Source of the DNA: Simplicispira psychrophila DSM 11588
GTDB taxonomy: Bacteria; Pseudomonadota; Gammaproteobacteria; Burkholderiales; Burkholderiaceae_C
Assembly (NCBI RefSeq): GCF_000688255.1
Contig: NZ_JHYS01000020.1
Span: 1-44,118 of the forward strand
DNA: 44,118 nucleotides
Direction of reading: 5' to 3'
Part shown: one piece after another, positions 2,169-38,237 of the stretch
Position numbering within the stretch: the first letter of the stretch is position 1
Layout of the letters: the number at the start of each line of letters is the position of its first letter
Translations under genes and position numbers: made by a program
The notes under the pieces: model-generated
Told to the model about the DNA's origin: nothing
Seen by the model: only the letters and a program-made list of their open reading frames with translations
Databases searched by the model: none

Positions 2169-2253
2169 TGCGTTAATCGAGTCATGCCGTGATGAACCGC
2201 GGGCGTCTATGGGATGCCCTTTTTTGTGGATCACTTCACACACTGCATTGCAT

Positions 2254-2310
2254 CAAAAAAATAGCTACTACTGCATGGCCGATAAAGGTTTGGCCCAGTT
2301 TTGGCCTAAT
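2254..2310 (+). repeat. Dispersed 3'-flank repeat, copy A
   Basis: The left arm is recognisable as AAAAATAGCTACTACTGC (ATAGCT at 2261-2266). The right arm is weaker, with GGCC-N6-GGCC ending in TTTTGGCCTAAT. It lies in the convergent gap between the 76-residue gene and glycerate kinase. See copies B to I for the family. Confidence 0.6.
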
Positions 2311-6178: not shown

Positions 6179-6210
6179 GGTAGGCGCTGCGGGGCAGCAC
6201 AAAATAAGAG

Positions 6211-6262
6211 TCAAATAAGGCTATAACGCTTACGGTGTAAGCGCTGTAAGCTATTAAATAAG
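6211..6262 (-). repeat. Dispersed 3'-flank repeat, copy B (good hairpin)
   Basis: On the minus strand the arms are AATAGCTTACAGCGCTTAC and GTAAGCGTTATAGCCTTATT with a 3-base loop. The inner stem AACGCTTAC (6225-6233) pairs with GTAAGCGCT (6237-6245) at 8 of 9 positions. It sits about 50 bases past the hemH stop and just ahead of the protease gene. This is one of the clearest copies in the window. Confidence 0.8.
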
Positions 6263-6311
6263 GAGTATCAGTGAGGGGCTCAGGCTCAAAGGTCTGCGTT
6301 ACTGGGCCTGG

Positions 6312-13916: not shown

Positions 13917-13928
13917 TGGTTTGGAGGG

Positions 13929-13978
13929 TTAAATAAGCCTCTAACCCTTGCTGGTCATGCGCTTTAAGCTATTGATAC
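13929..13978 (-). repeat. Dispersed 3'-flank repeat, copy C
   Basis: Minus-strand arms are CAATAGCTTAAAGCGCATGA and GGGTTAGAGGCTTATTTAA; plus-strand AGCTAT is at 13967-13972. It begins 13 bases after the sensor kinase stop, in the convergent gap with the copper receptor gene. Confidence 0.75.
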
Positions 13979-14033
13979 GATAGTTGTTTGCGGGAGTGCG
14001 GGGCCAGGATCGTGGCCTGACCCCGTAAGGGGC

Positions 14034-17636: not shown

Positions 17637-17660
17637 TGCCTTATGGAACGCCTTGATTAA

Positions 17661-17713
17661 GGGTAAAAATGGCCTTAAAGCACGGATGGACGTGCGGTTT
17701 AAGCTATTTTTTT
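17661..17713 (-). repeat. Dispersed 3'-flank repeat, copy D
   Basis: Minus-strand arms are AAAAATAGCTTAAACCGCAC and GTGCTTTAAGGCCATTTTTA; plus-strand CACG (17681) and CGTG (17691) form the inner stem, extended by CTTAAAG/GTTTAAG. It lies in the convergent gap between the HAD and hpnE genes, 24 bases past the HAD stop. Confidence 0.72.
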
Positions 17714-17744
17714 AGAAGCATTTCAGCGGTGGGCTGCGCAGCTG

Positions 17745-27805: not shown

Positions 27806-27868
27806 TGATTTTTAGGTCAAAACAGCCTCTAGCCCAATAGATACGTGCGTTAGAAGCTATCAAAATAA
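27806..27868 (-). repeat. Dispersed 3'-flank repeat, copy E
   Basis: Minus-strand arms are TTTTGATAGCTTCTAACGCA and GGGCTAGAGGCTGTTTTGAC; plus-strand AGCTAT is at 27855-27860. It lies between the permease gene and the binding-protein gene, both on the plus strand. Confidence 0.75.
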
Positions 27869-27983
27869 TATGGCGTGATACAGGGGCTGGGTGGCGCAAT
27901 CTGTTCGTTTTTGCCCGATACACTGCAATCCCGCTTCGGGTGAGCCGCCGTGGGTTTTTGCAGATTTGGAAGAAATTACCACC

Positions 27984-29379: not shown

Positions 29380-29430
29380 CAAAAATAATAGCTAATACCG
29401 CTGATATTCATTTGATTTCAGATGATTTTT
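29380..29430 (+). repeat. Dispersed 3'-flank repeat, copy F (left arm only)
   Basis: AAAAATAATAGCTAATACCG matches the left arm and shares TAGCTAATACCGCT with copy G. The right arm has diverged to a TTTCAGATGATTTTTCGTC segment forming its own hairpin with TCTGAAA (29433). ATAGCT is at 29388-29393, about 70 bases past the binding-protein stop. Confidence 0.55.
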
Positions 29431-33938: not shown

Positions 33939-35081
33939 TTAGCGCTGGCGGACGCGTGCGGCAGCCACTTCGCGCCCGAGTTCAATCACTGCCATGGCGT
34001 AGTAGCTTGACCAGTTGTAGCGCGTGATGGCGTAGAAATTGCCGGTGCCGGCCACATAGCTGGGGGTATCGCCGCCGTTTTGCAATTCGATCAGCGCCAG
34101 CGGGCCGTTGTGCTGCGCGCCGCTGCCTTGCAGCACGGCGCCTTTGGCGGCCATCTCGGCGGGGCTGAAGGTGGGCTTGATGTCGGGCGCCATCAGTGTC
34201 GGCATGTCCAAGCGCACGGGGTCGAATTCGACCGGGTAGGTCGGCGCCATGCCGGGGGTCCAGCCGTGCGCGATGAAGTAGTTGGCGACCGAGCCGATGG
34301 CGTCCTGCGGGCTGGCAAACAGGTCGATGTGGTCGTCGCCGTCAAAGTCAACGGCGTAGCGCACCCAGCTGGATGGCATAAACTGGGGCAGGCCCATGGC
34401 GCCGGCATAGCTGCCGCGCGGCTCGAAGGGGTTGGTGTGGCTGCGCTGCATCAGGCTGAGGAACTGCTCCAGTTCACCCCGGAAGAATTCCCGGCGCTCC
34501 AGCGCGCGCGGGTGCGCCGAGGGAAAGTCAAACGACAGCGTGGCCAGCGCGTCGATGACGCGGAAGTTGCCGATGTTCTGGCCGTAGATGGTTTCCACCC
34601 CCAGGATGCCGACGATGATTTCTGCCGGCACACCGTACTGGCGCTCGGCGCGCGCCAGTGCCGCACTGTGCTGTTGCCAAAAGCGCACGCCGGCGCGGAT
34701 GCGAATCGGCTCGATGAAGCGGCTGCGGTAGGCGCGCCAATTCTTGGCGCTGCTGCGGGCCGGTGGCAGCATCAAGGCGGGCACTTGCGGCAAAAAACGC
34801 GCCTGGCCGAGGGCCTCGCGCACCCAGGCAGGATCGAGGTCGCGGCGTGCGGCCAGATCGTCGGCAAATTGCATGGCGTCGGCGCGGCTGGCGTAGGGGG
34901 TGCTGCCTTCTACGGTCTTGCTGCGTGGGGTAGGTGCTTTCTCGGCGGGGGCCGTGATCGCCGTCCTGCGGAGTGTATTTTTAGGGTCATTTTGGGCTAT
35001 AGCGCACGTAGATATTGCGCTTATAGCTATGAAAAAAATAGCGGAAGGGGTGCGTCGAAAGCAAGGCGGAATCAGGATCAT
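33939..35081 (-). CDS. mltB: Lytic murein transglycosylase B
   Basis: Cleaves peptidoglycan glycan strands in the periplasm, leaving 1,6-anhydroMurNAc ends. The 380-residue protein has a signal peptide and an SLT_2-type catalytic domain (about 65-370) with the catalytic Glu163 in [20 protein letters not shown] and [15 protein letters not shown]. Most of the hydrophobic signal core (about residues 14-34, [15 protein letters not shown] within it) is encoded by dispersed repeat copy H. The expected cleavage is AIA before Gln30; the Cys at 26 is not in a convincing lipobox, so it is probably a soluble or Sec-released form. It starts 30 bases after tgpA. No Shine-Dalgarno is visible at the ATG (35081), and there is no other usable start ahead of the mature domain. 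Confidence 0.87.
34979..35040 (-). repeat. Dispersed 3'-flank repeat, copy H, inside mltB
   Basis: Minus-strand arms are TTCATAGCTATAAGCGCAAT and GTGCGCTATAGCCCAAAATG with AGCGC/GCGCT (35001-35005, 35017-35021) as the inner stem; plus-strand AGCTAT is at 35025-35030. It is a very good match to the family. Here it is translated: it codes the hydrophobic core of the MltB signal peptide. Confidence 0.85.
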
Positions 35082-35111: not shown

Positions 35112-37187
35112 TTACGCGCTCGGGGCCATTGGCCAGGGGAGTTGGCGTGCTTGGCGCCGCAGGGCGTGCAATGGCATGTGGGCGTGGCTGACCGGGGCGT
35201 AGCGCAGGGACTCCAGTTGCAGCAGCCACTGCGCCAGCGGATCGGCGCTGGTACCAAAGTGCGCTCGCGCCAAGCGCGCCATGGTGCGCGGCGGGGTGCT
35301 GTCAGGCAGGCTCAAGCCTGCGCGCGCTAAGCGCTGGCGGGTGCGCTGCAGCAGCCGCAGCCAGGGATCGTGCTGGCGCCGCTCCCACAGCGCCCAGACG
35401 GCGCCAGCCAGCGCCACCGCGCCCACCAGGCTGGCCAGCAGGCGCGCCAGGTCTTGCCCACTGGGCGCCTCAAAGCCCAGCGCCTTGAGCAGGTTGAGCT
35501 GGCGCGTTTGGGTGTAATTCAGTACCCACTGGTTCCAGTGGTTGTTCACCGCCTCCCAGACGGCGCGCAGGTGCTGCGCCATGCCGGGGCTGATGACAGC
35601 GCCCATGGCGTTGCCAAAGGCGCTGCGCGGTGCCAACAGGCGCTGAAACTGCCCCACGCGCCCGGGTGAGACGGCGCCGGTCGGATCGACGCGCACCCAG
35701 CCGCGCCCGGCGATCCACACTTCGGTCCAGGCATGGGCGTCGCTTTGGCGCACCGTCCAGTAGCCATCGACGCTGTTGCGCTCGCCGCCTTGGTAGCCGG
35801 TAACGATGCGCGCCGGGACGTCGGCCGCGCGCATCAGTACGGCGAAGGCGGAGGCGATGTGCTCGCAAAAACCGGCTTTTTTATCAAACCAGAACTCGTC
35901 AGCGGTGTGCTCGCCATAGATGCCGGGCTCCAGCGTGTATGCGTAGTCCCCGGTGCGCAACAGCGTGAGAGCCGCCTCGATCAGCGCTGGCGTGCCGCCC
36001 TGGACTAGGGCGGGATCGGCCAGCAGTTGCTGCGCCAGCGCCCGGGTGCGCGGGTTCGAACCCTTGGGCAGGCGTGAGAACAAGCGCAGTGGGTCCATTG
36101 CCTTGGCGTTATCGGCGCGCTCCAGTGGACCGTAGCGAAACTGTGGGTAGCTGGTGGCGCGGTAGCGCGTGACTTCGGTGATCGGGCGCGTGGTCAACCA
36201 CTGCAGGTCGTTGCCCATGAACACCCCGGTGCCACGGATGTCGGGCCGCTCGGGCGCTGCGTCCAGCACCAGCAGCCACGGGCGACGGTGGGGCTCCAGG
36301 GTGACGGCGTAGTGCAGCGGCTCACCCTGCACCTGCAGGTGGGCGGCGGCTGCAGCGTTGGCGGTCCTCGAATCGGCCACCCAGGCTGGGCCGTTTTCCA
36401 GAGAGCTACTGCGCCAGTTGCGCCCGTCAAACTGTCCCAGCACCGGGCCGCGAAAGTACAGCTGGGACTGCGGCGGTGCCGCGTTGCCGGGGGTATCAAA
36501 CAGCACCCGCAGGGCGACGCTGTCGTCCAGCGCCAGCGCGGCAATGTGGCCCACTTGCATGCTGCCCGACAGCCCGGAGCGCCCGACCCGATCATCGCTG
36601 GGCATGCCCCACAGCGGCGCCATGCGCGGAAACAGCACAAACAGCGCCAGCATGATCGGCGCGCCCAGCAGCGCCATGCGCGCCGCCATGCGCAGCGACT
36701 GCGCCAGCGGCGGGCGCCCGACCGGCAGGTGGGCGTTGACCAGCGCCGTCAGCAGGCCGAGCAGACCAATCAGCATGGCAGCGGCCACGGCCAGCGATTG
36801 CGAGAAGAAAAAATTGCTGAGCAGGGTGAAGAAGCCCAAGAAGAAAATCACCATGGCGTCGCGCCGCGCGCGCATCTCCAGCGTTTTGAGTCCTAGCAAG
36901 ATCACGATGAGCGTGACGCCAGGGTCGCGGCCGATGATGGTGCGGTAGGTGGCCCAAGTGGCGGCGACCGCCAGGCCCAGCAGCAGCATCGCCACCCAGG
37001 AGCGTGGCAGCGGGTGCCCGCGCCAGGCCAACACGCCGCGCCATAACAGCAAGCCGGCAGCAAAAGCGCTGGCCCACAGCGGCAAATGGGCGCTTTGCGG
37101 AGCGATCACCCAAGCAATGACCAGCAACAAAAACAGCGTGTCGCGGGCCTCGCGGGGCAGGGCAGTGAGCGTTTGGCGCAGGCGCAT
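35112..37187 (-). CDS. tgpA: TgpA-type transmembrane transglutaminase-like protein
   Basis: A 691-residue inner-membrane protein with a periplasmic transglutaminase-like domain. The N-terminal DUF3488 part has about six membrane segments (within 15-190), followed by a periplasmic region and the transglutaminase fold, then a membrane segment near residue 590 and a short cytoplasmic tail. The catalytic triad is visible: Cys441 (KKAGFCEHIASAFAVLMR), His485 (QSDAHAWTEVW) and Asp501 (VRVDPTGAVSP). Pseudomonas TgpA is essential, with a role in envelope biogenesis. The moxR, DUF58 and tgpA order is a conserved unit. Confidence 0.92.
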   Translation of the reverse strand: MRLRQTLTALPREARDTLFLLLVIAWVIAPQSAHLPLWASAFAAGLLLWRGVLAWRGHPLPRSWVAMLLLGLAVAATWATYRTIIGRDPGVTLIVILLGLKTLEMRARRDAMVIFFLGFFTLLSNFFFSQSLAVAAAMLIGLLGLLTALVNAHLPVGRPPLAQSLRMAARMALLGAPIMLALFVLFPRMAPLWGMPSDDRVGRSGLSGSMQVGHIAALALDDSVALRVLFDTPGNAAPPQSQLYFRGPVLGQFDGRNWRSSSLENGPAWVADSRTANAAAAAHLQVQGEPLHYAVTLEPHRRPWLLVLDAAPERPDIRGTGVFMGNDLQWLTTRPITEVTRYRATSYPQFRYGPLERADNAKAMDPLRLFSRLPKGSNPRTRALAQQLLADPALVQGGTPALIEAALTLLRTGDYAYTLEPGIYGEHTADEFWFDKKAGFCEHIASAFAVLMRAADVPARIVTGYQGGERNSVDGYWTVRQSDAHAWTEVWIAGRGWVRVDPTGAVSPGRVGQFQRLLAPRSAFGNAMGAVISPGMAQHLRAVWEAVNNHWNQWVLNYTQTRQLNLLKALGFEAPSGQDLARLLASLVGAVALAGAVWALWERRQHDPWLRLLQRTRQRLARAGLSLPDSTPPRTMARLARAHFGTSADPLAQWLLQLESLRYAPVSHAHMPLHALRRQARQLPWPMAPSA

Positions 37188-37226
37188 GGGCGGGCTTTTA
37201 AAGGAAAAGGAGCATTCAATGCGCTA

Positions 37227-37280
37227 CTATATATATAGCTAATACCGCTTTTATATAAAGGGCTAGAGGCTTATTTAATA
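37227..37280 (+). repeat. Dispersed 3'-flank repeat, copy G
   Basis: Arms are TATATAGCTAATACCGCTTT and GGGCTAGAGGCTTATTTAAT around a short AT-rich centre; ATAGCT is at 37235-37240. It overlaps the stop codon of the DUF58 gene (37277-37275, minus strand), so the repeat supplies that gene's terminal codons, and lies between DUF58 and tgpA. Confidence 0.8.
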
Positions 37281-38237
37281 CAAAGCTAATGCCTGCAGGC
37301 AGCGCTGGCGTTGCGCGGCGCCATGGTCGGGGGCGATGTCTGCATTGGGCAGGCGCAGGCCGTAGTCCAGTCCGAGGCGCTCGGCCTCCAGCACCCAGGC
37401 CGTCAGGCGTGACAGGCGTGCTTCGGGGTCTTGCAGGCCGGTGCGCTCGGGCGACAGCCACAGCTGGCTGCGCTGCAGGTGTTCGGCATCGCGGCTGACC
37501 AGGTGGTCGCTGCCCCGGGCAAAGGCCTGTGCGGCTTTTTTCCAGACCACCAGTTTGAGCGGGTCGCCCCGGCGGTAGGCGCGCACACCGTCAAAGTCGC
37601 CACTGCCCTGGCTGGCACTGCTGGCGGTGCTGCCGGCGCTGGGTTCGCCCAGCGGCAGCGGCGGGGGGGGGGGTTCGGGGGTTGGGTAGATCAGCAGCTG
37701 CACTGCGGGCCGCCACAGCGCCCAGACGCGAAAGGTGCCCAGCGGAAAACGCGTTTCTGCCGTCAGCAGCGGCGCAGTGTTGAGGCCGCGGCGCGGCGCC
37801 GTAAACGCCACCTCAACGCTGGCGCTGCCCTGGGCCGGCACGTCGCTAAAGGCCCACTGGCCGCTGCCATGGACCGCCATTCCAATACCAAAGCGCGCAT
37901 TGCGCCGGGTGCTGGTCAGTTGTACTTCCAGTAAGCTGCTGTGGCCCAGAAACTGCGGCTCGGGTGGTTTCAGGTGCAGGCCCATGCCGCGCAGCGTGGC
38001 GTGGCTGATGTGCATGGCGACCACCGCGCTGCCGGCGAGCAGAAAGGTCAGCAAATAGCCCAGGTTGAGCTGAAAGTTGATCGACGTCACCAGCAGCACC
38101 AGCAGGGTCAGCGCCAGCATCCAGCCGGCGCCGGTGGGCACGATGTAGACGTTGCGCTGCGTCAGTTGCAGACTGTCCTGGCGCGGCAGGCGGGACTGCC
38201 ACCAGCGGGTGAGGCGGCTGCGCAGGTTCAAGTCCAT
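37275..38237 (-). CDS. DUF58 protein (MoxR-associated)
   Basis: A 320-residue protein with two N-terminal membrane segments (about 37-55 and 58-76) and a C-terminal DUF58 region. The family motif reads GDFDGVRAYRRGDPLKLVVWKKAA. DUF58 proteins pair with MoxR ATPases, probably in assembly or activation of envelope or secreted factors. The ATG at 38237 overlaps the moxR stop (TGATG). A proline run (about residues 186-194) is coded by an 11-base homopolymer (G11 at 37663-37673 on the plus strand), a likely slippage site. The last codons and stop come from repeat copy G. Confidence 0.9.
   Translation of the reverse strand: MDLNLRSRLTRWWQSRLPRQDSLQLTQRNVYIVPTGAGWMLALTLLVLLVTSINFQLNLGYLLTFLLAGSAVVAMHISHATLRGMGLHLKPPEPQFLGHSSLLEVQLTSTRRNARFGIGMAVHGSGQWAFSDVPAQGSASVEVAFTAPRRGLNTAPLLTAETRFPLGTFRVWALWRPAVQLLIYPTPEPPPPPLPLGEPSAGSTASSASQGSGDFDGVRAYRRGDPLKLVVWKKAAQAFARGSDHLVSRDAEHLQRSQLWLSPERTGLQDPEARLSRLTAWVLEAERLGLDYGLRLPNADIAPDHGAAQRQRCLQALALY
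37663..37673 (+). repeat. 11-base poly-G tract inside the DUF58 gene
   Basis: Eleven consecutive G on the plus strand (C on the coding strand), followed by TTCGGGG. In the present frame it codes Pro residues of a linker. A change of one base would frameshift and truncate DUF58, so this is a candidate contingency locus, or a sequencing-error hotspot. Confidence 0.85.

Follow-up and report, generated by a model that had tools for sequence, protein, structure and literature searches.

The mltB locus and its start region

The window analyzed in this work, a 44,118-nt stretch of contig NZ_JHYS01000020.1 from Simplicispira psychrophila DSM 11588, contains an mltB-like lytic transglycosylase gene on the minus strand (33939..35081), a 380-aa ORF with a Pfam SLT_2 match (E 1.8e-91) and orthologues in 80 loci. 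Directly upstream on the same strand is a tgpA-like transglutaminase gene (35112..37187; Pfam TgpA_N and Transglut_core). A 5S rRNA gene is located at 172-284. The mltB start codon is placed at 35079..35081 (minus strand). This ATG at 35081 is the sole in-frame start upstream of residue 71, no in-frame ATG, GTG or TTG being present between the two, and the nearest in-frame stop 5' of it is 11 codons away. The start and the n-region are conserved in two congeners (L127 and L135), and no Shine-Dalgarno-like run was seen by eye ahead of the ATG. A preliminary description of this DNA had made the same two points, that there is no second start before the mature domain and no visible Shine-Dalgarno sequence, and both hold.

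A copy of a short repeat lies within the 5' end of mltB at 34981..35042; its canonical orientation (plus strand) is antisense to the gene, it is translated in frame as residues 14-33, and it was detected by profiles built without mltB copies. Residues 14-24 (35010..35042, minus strand) form a repeat-encoded hydrophobic core with a best 10-residue Kyte-Doolittle mean of 2.82, preceded by two Arg residues. The c-region carries a putative signal peptidase site AIA-Q at residues 27-30 (34992..35003, minus strand), called by rule from the translation, with cleavage predicted between residues 29 and 30. With RR, the core mean and AIA-Q, the window copy reads by rules as a Sec (signal peptidase I) signal peptide. 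The copy contains a small palindrome, GCTAT...ATAGC (35025..35042, plus strand; other-strand self match, 8.9 bits), whose T-run on the mltB strand encodes AIFFIA, and a larger inverted repeat, AGCGCA...TGCGCT (35001..35021, plus strand), which forms a stem in the computed fold.

Repeat copies in the window and in the genome

The repeat is approximately 65 bp long and partly palindromic, and the window holds seven full copies with a GC content of 30-42%. Besides the mltB copy, these are model matches at 2252..2309 (minus strand), 6206..6267, 13925..13984, 17657..17721 and 27810..27870 (all plus strand), and a copy upstream of tgpA at 37222..37284 (minus strand) that was matched by both profile and model; a partial copy is found at 29381..29402 (minus strand; 13.1 bits, E 0.0037). 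A profile of the six other full window copies detected the mltB copy with E 4.9e-4 in 44 kb. A model made from 22 non-mltB copies matched it at 34993-35043 (18.9 bits, E 5.7e-5, model positions 14-64 of 66). The mltB copy scores lowest among the seven, the other six reaching 35-49 bits. Many of the 80 loci also have repeat matches ∼2.1-2.4 kb upstream of mltB, where the 37222-37284 copy lies, so some noncoding copies look positionally conserved.

At least 150 matches to the repeat model were found in the S. psychrophila genome. The 780 kb of it that was sampled contained 117 copies of 20 bits or more, from which we extrapolate to ∼540 copies per genome. The preliminary description had placed a dispersed repeat inside the 5' end of mltB, translated into the hydrophobic core and the AIA-Q site of a signal-peptide-like N-terminus; with the coordinates and rule-based calls given above, and with many noncoding copies of the repeat, this account is borne out.

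Among 24 genomes of the genus set (own genome included), 21 gave from 107 to at least 130 repeat matches each at E 1e-6. The remaining three, G001, G015 and G022, gave 0, 0 and 3 matches at this threshold and 1, 3 and 6 at E 0.01. Simplicispira metamorpha and Acidovorax sp. 210-6 are both matched by loci of the genus set, and two of its entries (G030 and G005) appear to be the same genome. At E 0.01, a Variovorax genome had no match, a Curvibacter genome 1, Acidovorax soli 6, Paracidovorax valerianellae 146, and Acidovorax sp. Leaf78 at least 150; Polaromonas JS666 had 4 matches. No match was found in 16 genomes of other families at E 1e-6. The repeat family is abundant in many Comamonadaceae. 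Rfam curated models run over the window at the gathering threshold reported only the 5S rRNA and no match to the repeat. RNAalifold gave no consensus pairs on 22 copies, and the repeat model R1 is therefore based on sequence only. A description of the family, or of the repeat in mltB, lolA or gspD, was not found in the open literature searched.

The repeat at mltB in relatives

A profile built without mltB copies gave 71 hits at E<1 over the 80 orthologous loci (523 kb); 35 of these were at the 5' end of mltB, and 34 of the 35 were antisense, in 34 of the 80 loci. To call the repeat at mltB in a larger set, we required at least 8 bits (a threshold of our own choice) and a score that none of 200 synonymous shuffles of the locus reached. 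The window copy scored 23.1 bits against a profile of 65 non-mltB copies, compared to -1.7 for the best of its 200 shuffles. The 104 family loci divide into 69 with the repeat, 8 that are ambiguous and 27 without it. Some genomes are counted twice among the 104 (and likewise in the 67- and 69-copy sets below); among the 93 distinct loci, the repeat was called in 59. None of the 28 other-family loci reached 8 bits. The shuffle test covered 132 loci, with no match in L135. The shuffles drew codons from the mature part, and the AT-rich bias at gene starts favours the real sequences somewhat; this bias is small in signal peptides without the repeat. Because the window copy and 68 further loci beat all of their synonymous shuffles, we take the mltB segment to be repeat DNA and not merely a similar peptide.

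The carriers belong to Acidovorax, Simplicispira, Giesbergeria, Alicycliphilus and Polaromonas, and to one of four Rhodoferax loci. The mltB repeat is absent at four Variovorax loci and at one each from Curvibacter, Xylophilus and Pseudorhodoferax; different signal peptides are seen in Variovorax, Curvibacter and Xylophilus. In L014, at 2758-2821, and in the same gene of L115, a copy in the opposite orientation is found just upstream of mltB, with an unrelated signal peptide. On an mltB tree of 121 distinct rows the repeat label is clustered (at least 17 changes vs. 40.6 in shuffles) and does not form a single clade. Given at least 17 changes, it is likely that the repeat was lost more than once or was in part gained independently. 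The genome of L038 has 146 copies and that of L010 at least 150, though mltB is without the repeat in both; with such copy numbers in some non-carrier genomes, the state of mltB is not simply tied to the abundance of the family.

The preliminary description had held that a similar signal peptide in orthologues without the repeat would speak against a repeat origin. Such peptides do occur, in Paracidovorax L038, in Acidovorax L063 and in G001, G015 and G022, but their bearers are nested among carriers, and on our reading the DNA pattern eroded there afterwards with the peptide kept.

Reading frame, codon usage, and signal-peptide likeness

Of the 69 mltB copies, 67 carry the ATAGC anchor of the repeat, and all 67 have it at codon phase 0 (L069 and L077 have no anchor and were left out of this count). 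Simple n/h/c signal-peptide rules are satisfied by 64 of the 67. The copies do not conform to a lipoprotein signal peptide: the Cys that is invariant after a lipobox is present in 38 of the 67, with Ser in 16, Thr in 6, Gly in 3 and other residues in 4, and the relatives L126 and L129 differ at this position.

Codons that are disfavoured elsewhere in the gene are frequent here. Taking all 104 family mltB loci, with or without a match to the repeat, ATA encodes 126 of 225 Ile (56%) and GCT 237 of 565 Ala (42%) in the most hydrophobic segment. In the mature parts of mltB the figures are 42 of 1254 Ile and 159 of 3893 Ala; in the same segment of the 28 other-family loci, 1 of 21 Ile and 14 of 130 Ala; and in rule-called signal peptides without the repeat from the sampled genomes, 9 of 127 Ile and 100 of 654 Ala. 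We then compared codons for shared residues between Acidovorax-side and Polaromonas-side loci (250 non-independent pairs, 66% mature identity, loci chosen for a matching repeat). In the repeat segment, the same codon was used for 97% of shared Ile and 62% of shared Ala, where codon usage predicts 65% and 38%. In the mature part the observed and predicted values were 65% vs. 67% for Ile and 56% vs. 47% for Ala. The choice of repeat-matching loci inflates the codon figures of both the anchored-copy and the codon-sharing sets. Based on the codon-sharing values, synonymous sites are estimated to be near saturation in the body of mltB and not in the repeat, a hint that the repeat DNA within mltB is being actively maintained.

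In a set of 50 copies from between genes, 14 (28%) are signal-peptide-like in the antisense phase-0 frame and 42% are open in it; for the other five frames the signal-peptide-like share is 0-8%. Markov-resampled controls gave a mean of 3.3 per 50 and a maximum of 8 in 200 resamplings; 73 of 2436 random intergenic segments were signal-peptide-like. In this frame the consensus of the family has A-I-K-stop-I-A across the small palindrome, where the mltB strand has the T-run instead.

Other genes carrying the repeat

Thirty loci were examined for each of lolA, gspD and aroE. In the mltB-like orientation, the repeat covers the LolA signal peptide in 19 of the 21 congeners that could be read (14-43 bits; L231, with masked letters, and L232, without a gene start, were left out) and the GspD signal peptide in 21 of 24 congeners (31-46 bits). 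None of 100 synonymous shuffles reached the score at any repeat-bearing lolA or gspD locus, and phase 0 was found in the one lolA copy and the one gspD copy checked. In other families the repeat was found at 0 of 7 lolA loci (best 1.9 bits) and 0 of 6 gspD loci. An internal stretch of aroE also carries the repeat in 20 of 23 congeners and in 0 of 7 loci of other families; in most congeners this stretch is only a few residues longer than that of the other families. Further in-frame copies are present in thiL, pgi, gph, comEC, rlmD and a cinA-like gene (NCBIfam names) and, by eye, in ileS.

Signal-peptide genes with the repeat are few: of 942 genes sampled in 1.18 Mb (called by codon usage), 165 had a rule-called signal peptide and only one of these, lolA, carries the repeat, although the calling rule missed gspD. 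A sense-orientation copy lies at the start of a likely exported putative metalloprotease (G000:C2:232916-232987), and another copy spans the start of a putative lipoprotein, also likely exported (G000:C2:68384-68448); both proteins were named by eye. By NCBIfam matches, a single ORF at L189:2193-3845 joins a CinA-type nicotinamide-nucleotide amidase domain to PAS and GGDEF domains, with a repeat copy at the N-terminus.

A repeat-poor clade

G001, G015 and G022 form a supported clade nested beside S. metamorpha (97/96; tree rooted on four distant outgroups). From this nested position we infer that the repeat family was lost in the clade. The repeat is also gone at the tested coding sites: no convincing repeat was found in mltB of the three genomes (2.9 bits, -0.7 bits and no hit), in gspD of the three, or in lolA of the two that have the locus, and aroE gave a weak signal or none, not above shuffles. 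The N-termini are still signal-peptide-like and in the same register by eye. This would fit a signal peptide that is retained at the protein level while the repeat DNA has a separate, genome-wide fate. With hardly any copies left in its genomes, the clade provides a natural contrast, and its gene content could point to a factor that maintains the repeat.

Origin of the signal peptide

The antisense frame in which ATA-GCT is in phase, one of six frames of the repeat, often carries a signal-peptide-like segment. In an ancestor of the Acidovorax/Simplicispira/Polaromonas group, a repeat copy would have ended up in the 5' part of mltB, preceded by a start codon and a basic n-region, and would since have been used as the h- and c-regions of a signal peptide sending MltB to the periplasm, with the same kind of event at lolA and gspD. 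We consider it very probable that a repeat copy became the h- and c-regions of the MltB signal peptide in the group ancestor, and likewise those of LolA and GspD. That the repeat-encoded peptide directs export is predicted from its composition, and the change presumably ran from repeat to signal peptide. It may have had one or several origins, with capture by insertion, by relocation of the start or by conversion. Selection on the DNA or RNA, or conversion between copies, may maintain the repeat inside the genes.

The most serious alternative, though an unlikely one, is that the mltB repeat is kept mainly for a function of the DNA or RNA (terminator, mRNA stability or protein binding) and that its coding is tolerated rather than selected. 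The persistence of disfavoured codons between distant clades agrees with this, within a set of loci chosen for bearing the repeat, as does the pairing of the hairpin, which averages 4.40 of 6 pairs compared to 3.90 under a synonymous null (best of 500 null means, 4.18). The fold at the mltB start has a z of -1.78, and 8 of 200 shuffles fold as well. The preliminary description had suggested that a hairpin near the start codon could control translation; this idea has weak support, the excess of pairing being modest and the start codon unpaired in the fold. Against a mainly DNA or RNA function, the three signal-peptide genes share one orientation and the signal-peptide-like frame (the phase was read in a single copy each of lolA and gspD), a T-run on the mltB strand stands where the consensus would place A-I-K-stop-I-A, and the N-termini of the clade without the repeat are, by eye, signal-peptide-like all the same.

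It is very improbable that a signal-peptide gene was the source from which the repeat family spread. Similarity alone does not give a direction, but many copies are intergenic and only 42% of the 50 intergenic copies are open in the frame, and the Variovorax, Curvibacter and Xylophilus loci with their other signal peptides also argue for the order from repeat to gene. The preliminary description had proposed a more local event, in which this lineage recently took up the repeat lying 3' of tgpA. There is a repeat ∼70 bp past the tgpA stop, and the opposite-orientation copies of L014 and L115, upstream of mltB genes with an unrelated signal peptide, would also speak for it, but a repeat-encoded signal peptide common to several genera (69 of 104 family loci) makes capture within the S. 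psychrophila lineage slightly more improbable still. Chance or convergence, under which a hydrophobic signal peptide would look like the repeat simply by being AT-rich, can be practically dismissed: signal peptides without the repeat do lean this way (ATA 7% and GCT 15%, vs. 4% and 9% in all genes), but far less than the mltB signal peptide in all 104 family loci, synonymous shuffles of the same peptides fall short of the scores, and other-family mltB N-termini gave 0 of 28 at 8 bits.

Beyond capture of the repeat as a signal peptide, a broader view can be put forward tentatively, and we rate it at somewhat below even chances. The repeat could be a recurrent, portable source of signal peptides whose DNA keeps its shape inside genes through a process acting on the whole genome (conversion between copies, or a factor that binds them); once the process is lost, the pattern would fade everywhere at once (intergenic copies, mltB, lolA, gspD and aroE) and the signal peptides would survive as plain protein code. 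The question raised is what keeps a repeat with disfavoured codons recognisable inside genes.

Comparison with known repeat systems

The in-frame, stop-free copies inside unrelated conserved genes are of the same kind as protein-coding palindromic repeats. Rickettsia palindromic elements (Ogata 2000) are described as short palindromic repeats of which some are intergenic and others sit in frame within conserved genes unrelated to one another (PMC2229807, PMC2759123). From these descriptions the two are alike in kind and differ in host, and the present repeat has one signal-peptide-like frame that is used at N-termini. GTAG/CGTC REPs, as reported in 2013 (PMC3733652), are also palindromic with intragenic copies, several of them at N-termini, and its authors caution that wrongly annotated starts may lie behind many of the N-terminal cases. 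By inspection, neither GTAG nor CGTC is present in the consensus of 65 repeat copies, which sets it apart from these REP superfamilies.

The BRE element of Bordetella and Comamonadaceae is, like the present repeat, dispersed, with some copies wholly inside coding sequences (Hot 2011, PMC3110155). It is described as ∼90 bp long with a mean GC of 69% in Bordetella and 29 copies in Polaromonas JS666, compared to ∼65 bp, 30-42% GC in the full window copies and 4 matches in JS666 for the present repeat. Identity with BRE was considered and seems less likely, as GC content and copy numbers disagree in this comparison, which is by description and with differing detection thresholds.

A close precedent is the RU-2/YPAL repeat, which forms part of the predicted signal peptide of YPO1552 through an in-frame fusion, with unrelated signal peptides in homologues elsewhere (Delihas 2007, PMC2759123). 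Both are small dispersed repeats that make up part of a predicted signal peptide. YPO1552 is described as a putative exported protein, whereas the present repeat is found in the conserved envelope genes mltB, lolA and gspD common to congeners. In mltB it also extends over several genera and, in contrast to the RU-2/YPAL case as described, is accompanied by controls on synonymous codons and by a clade that lacks it. Going by these accounts, intragenic palindromic repeats and one predicted repeat-derived signal peptide (YPO1552) were already published, and the family described here would be a new form within that known kind. It provides a well-supported case of dispersed repeat DNA built into conserved envelope proteins; several genes are involved, and in mltB the feature extends over more than one genus.
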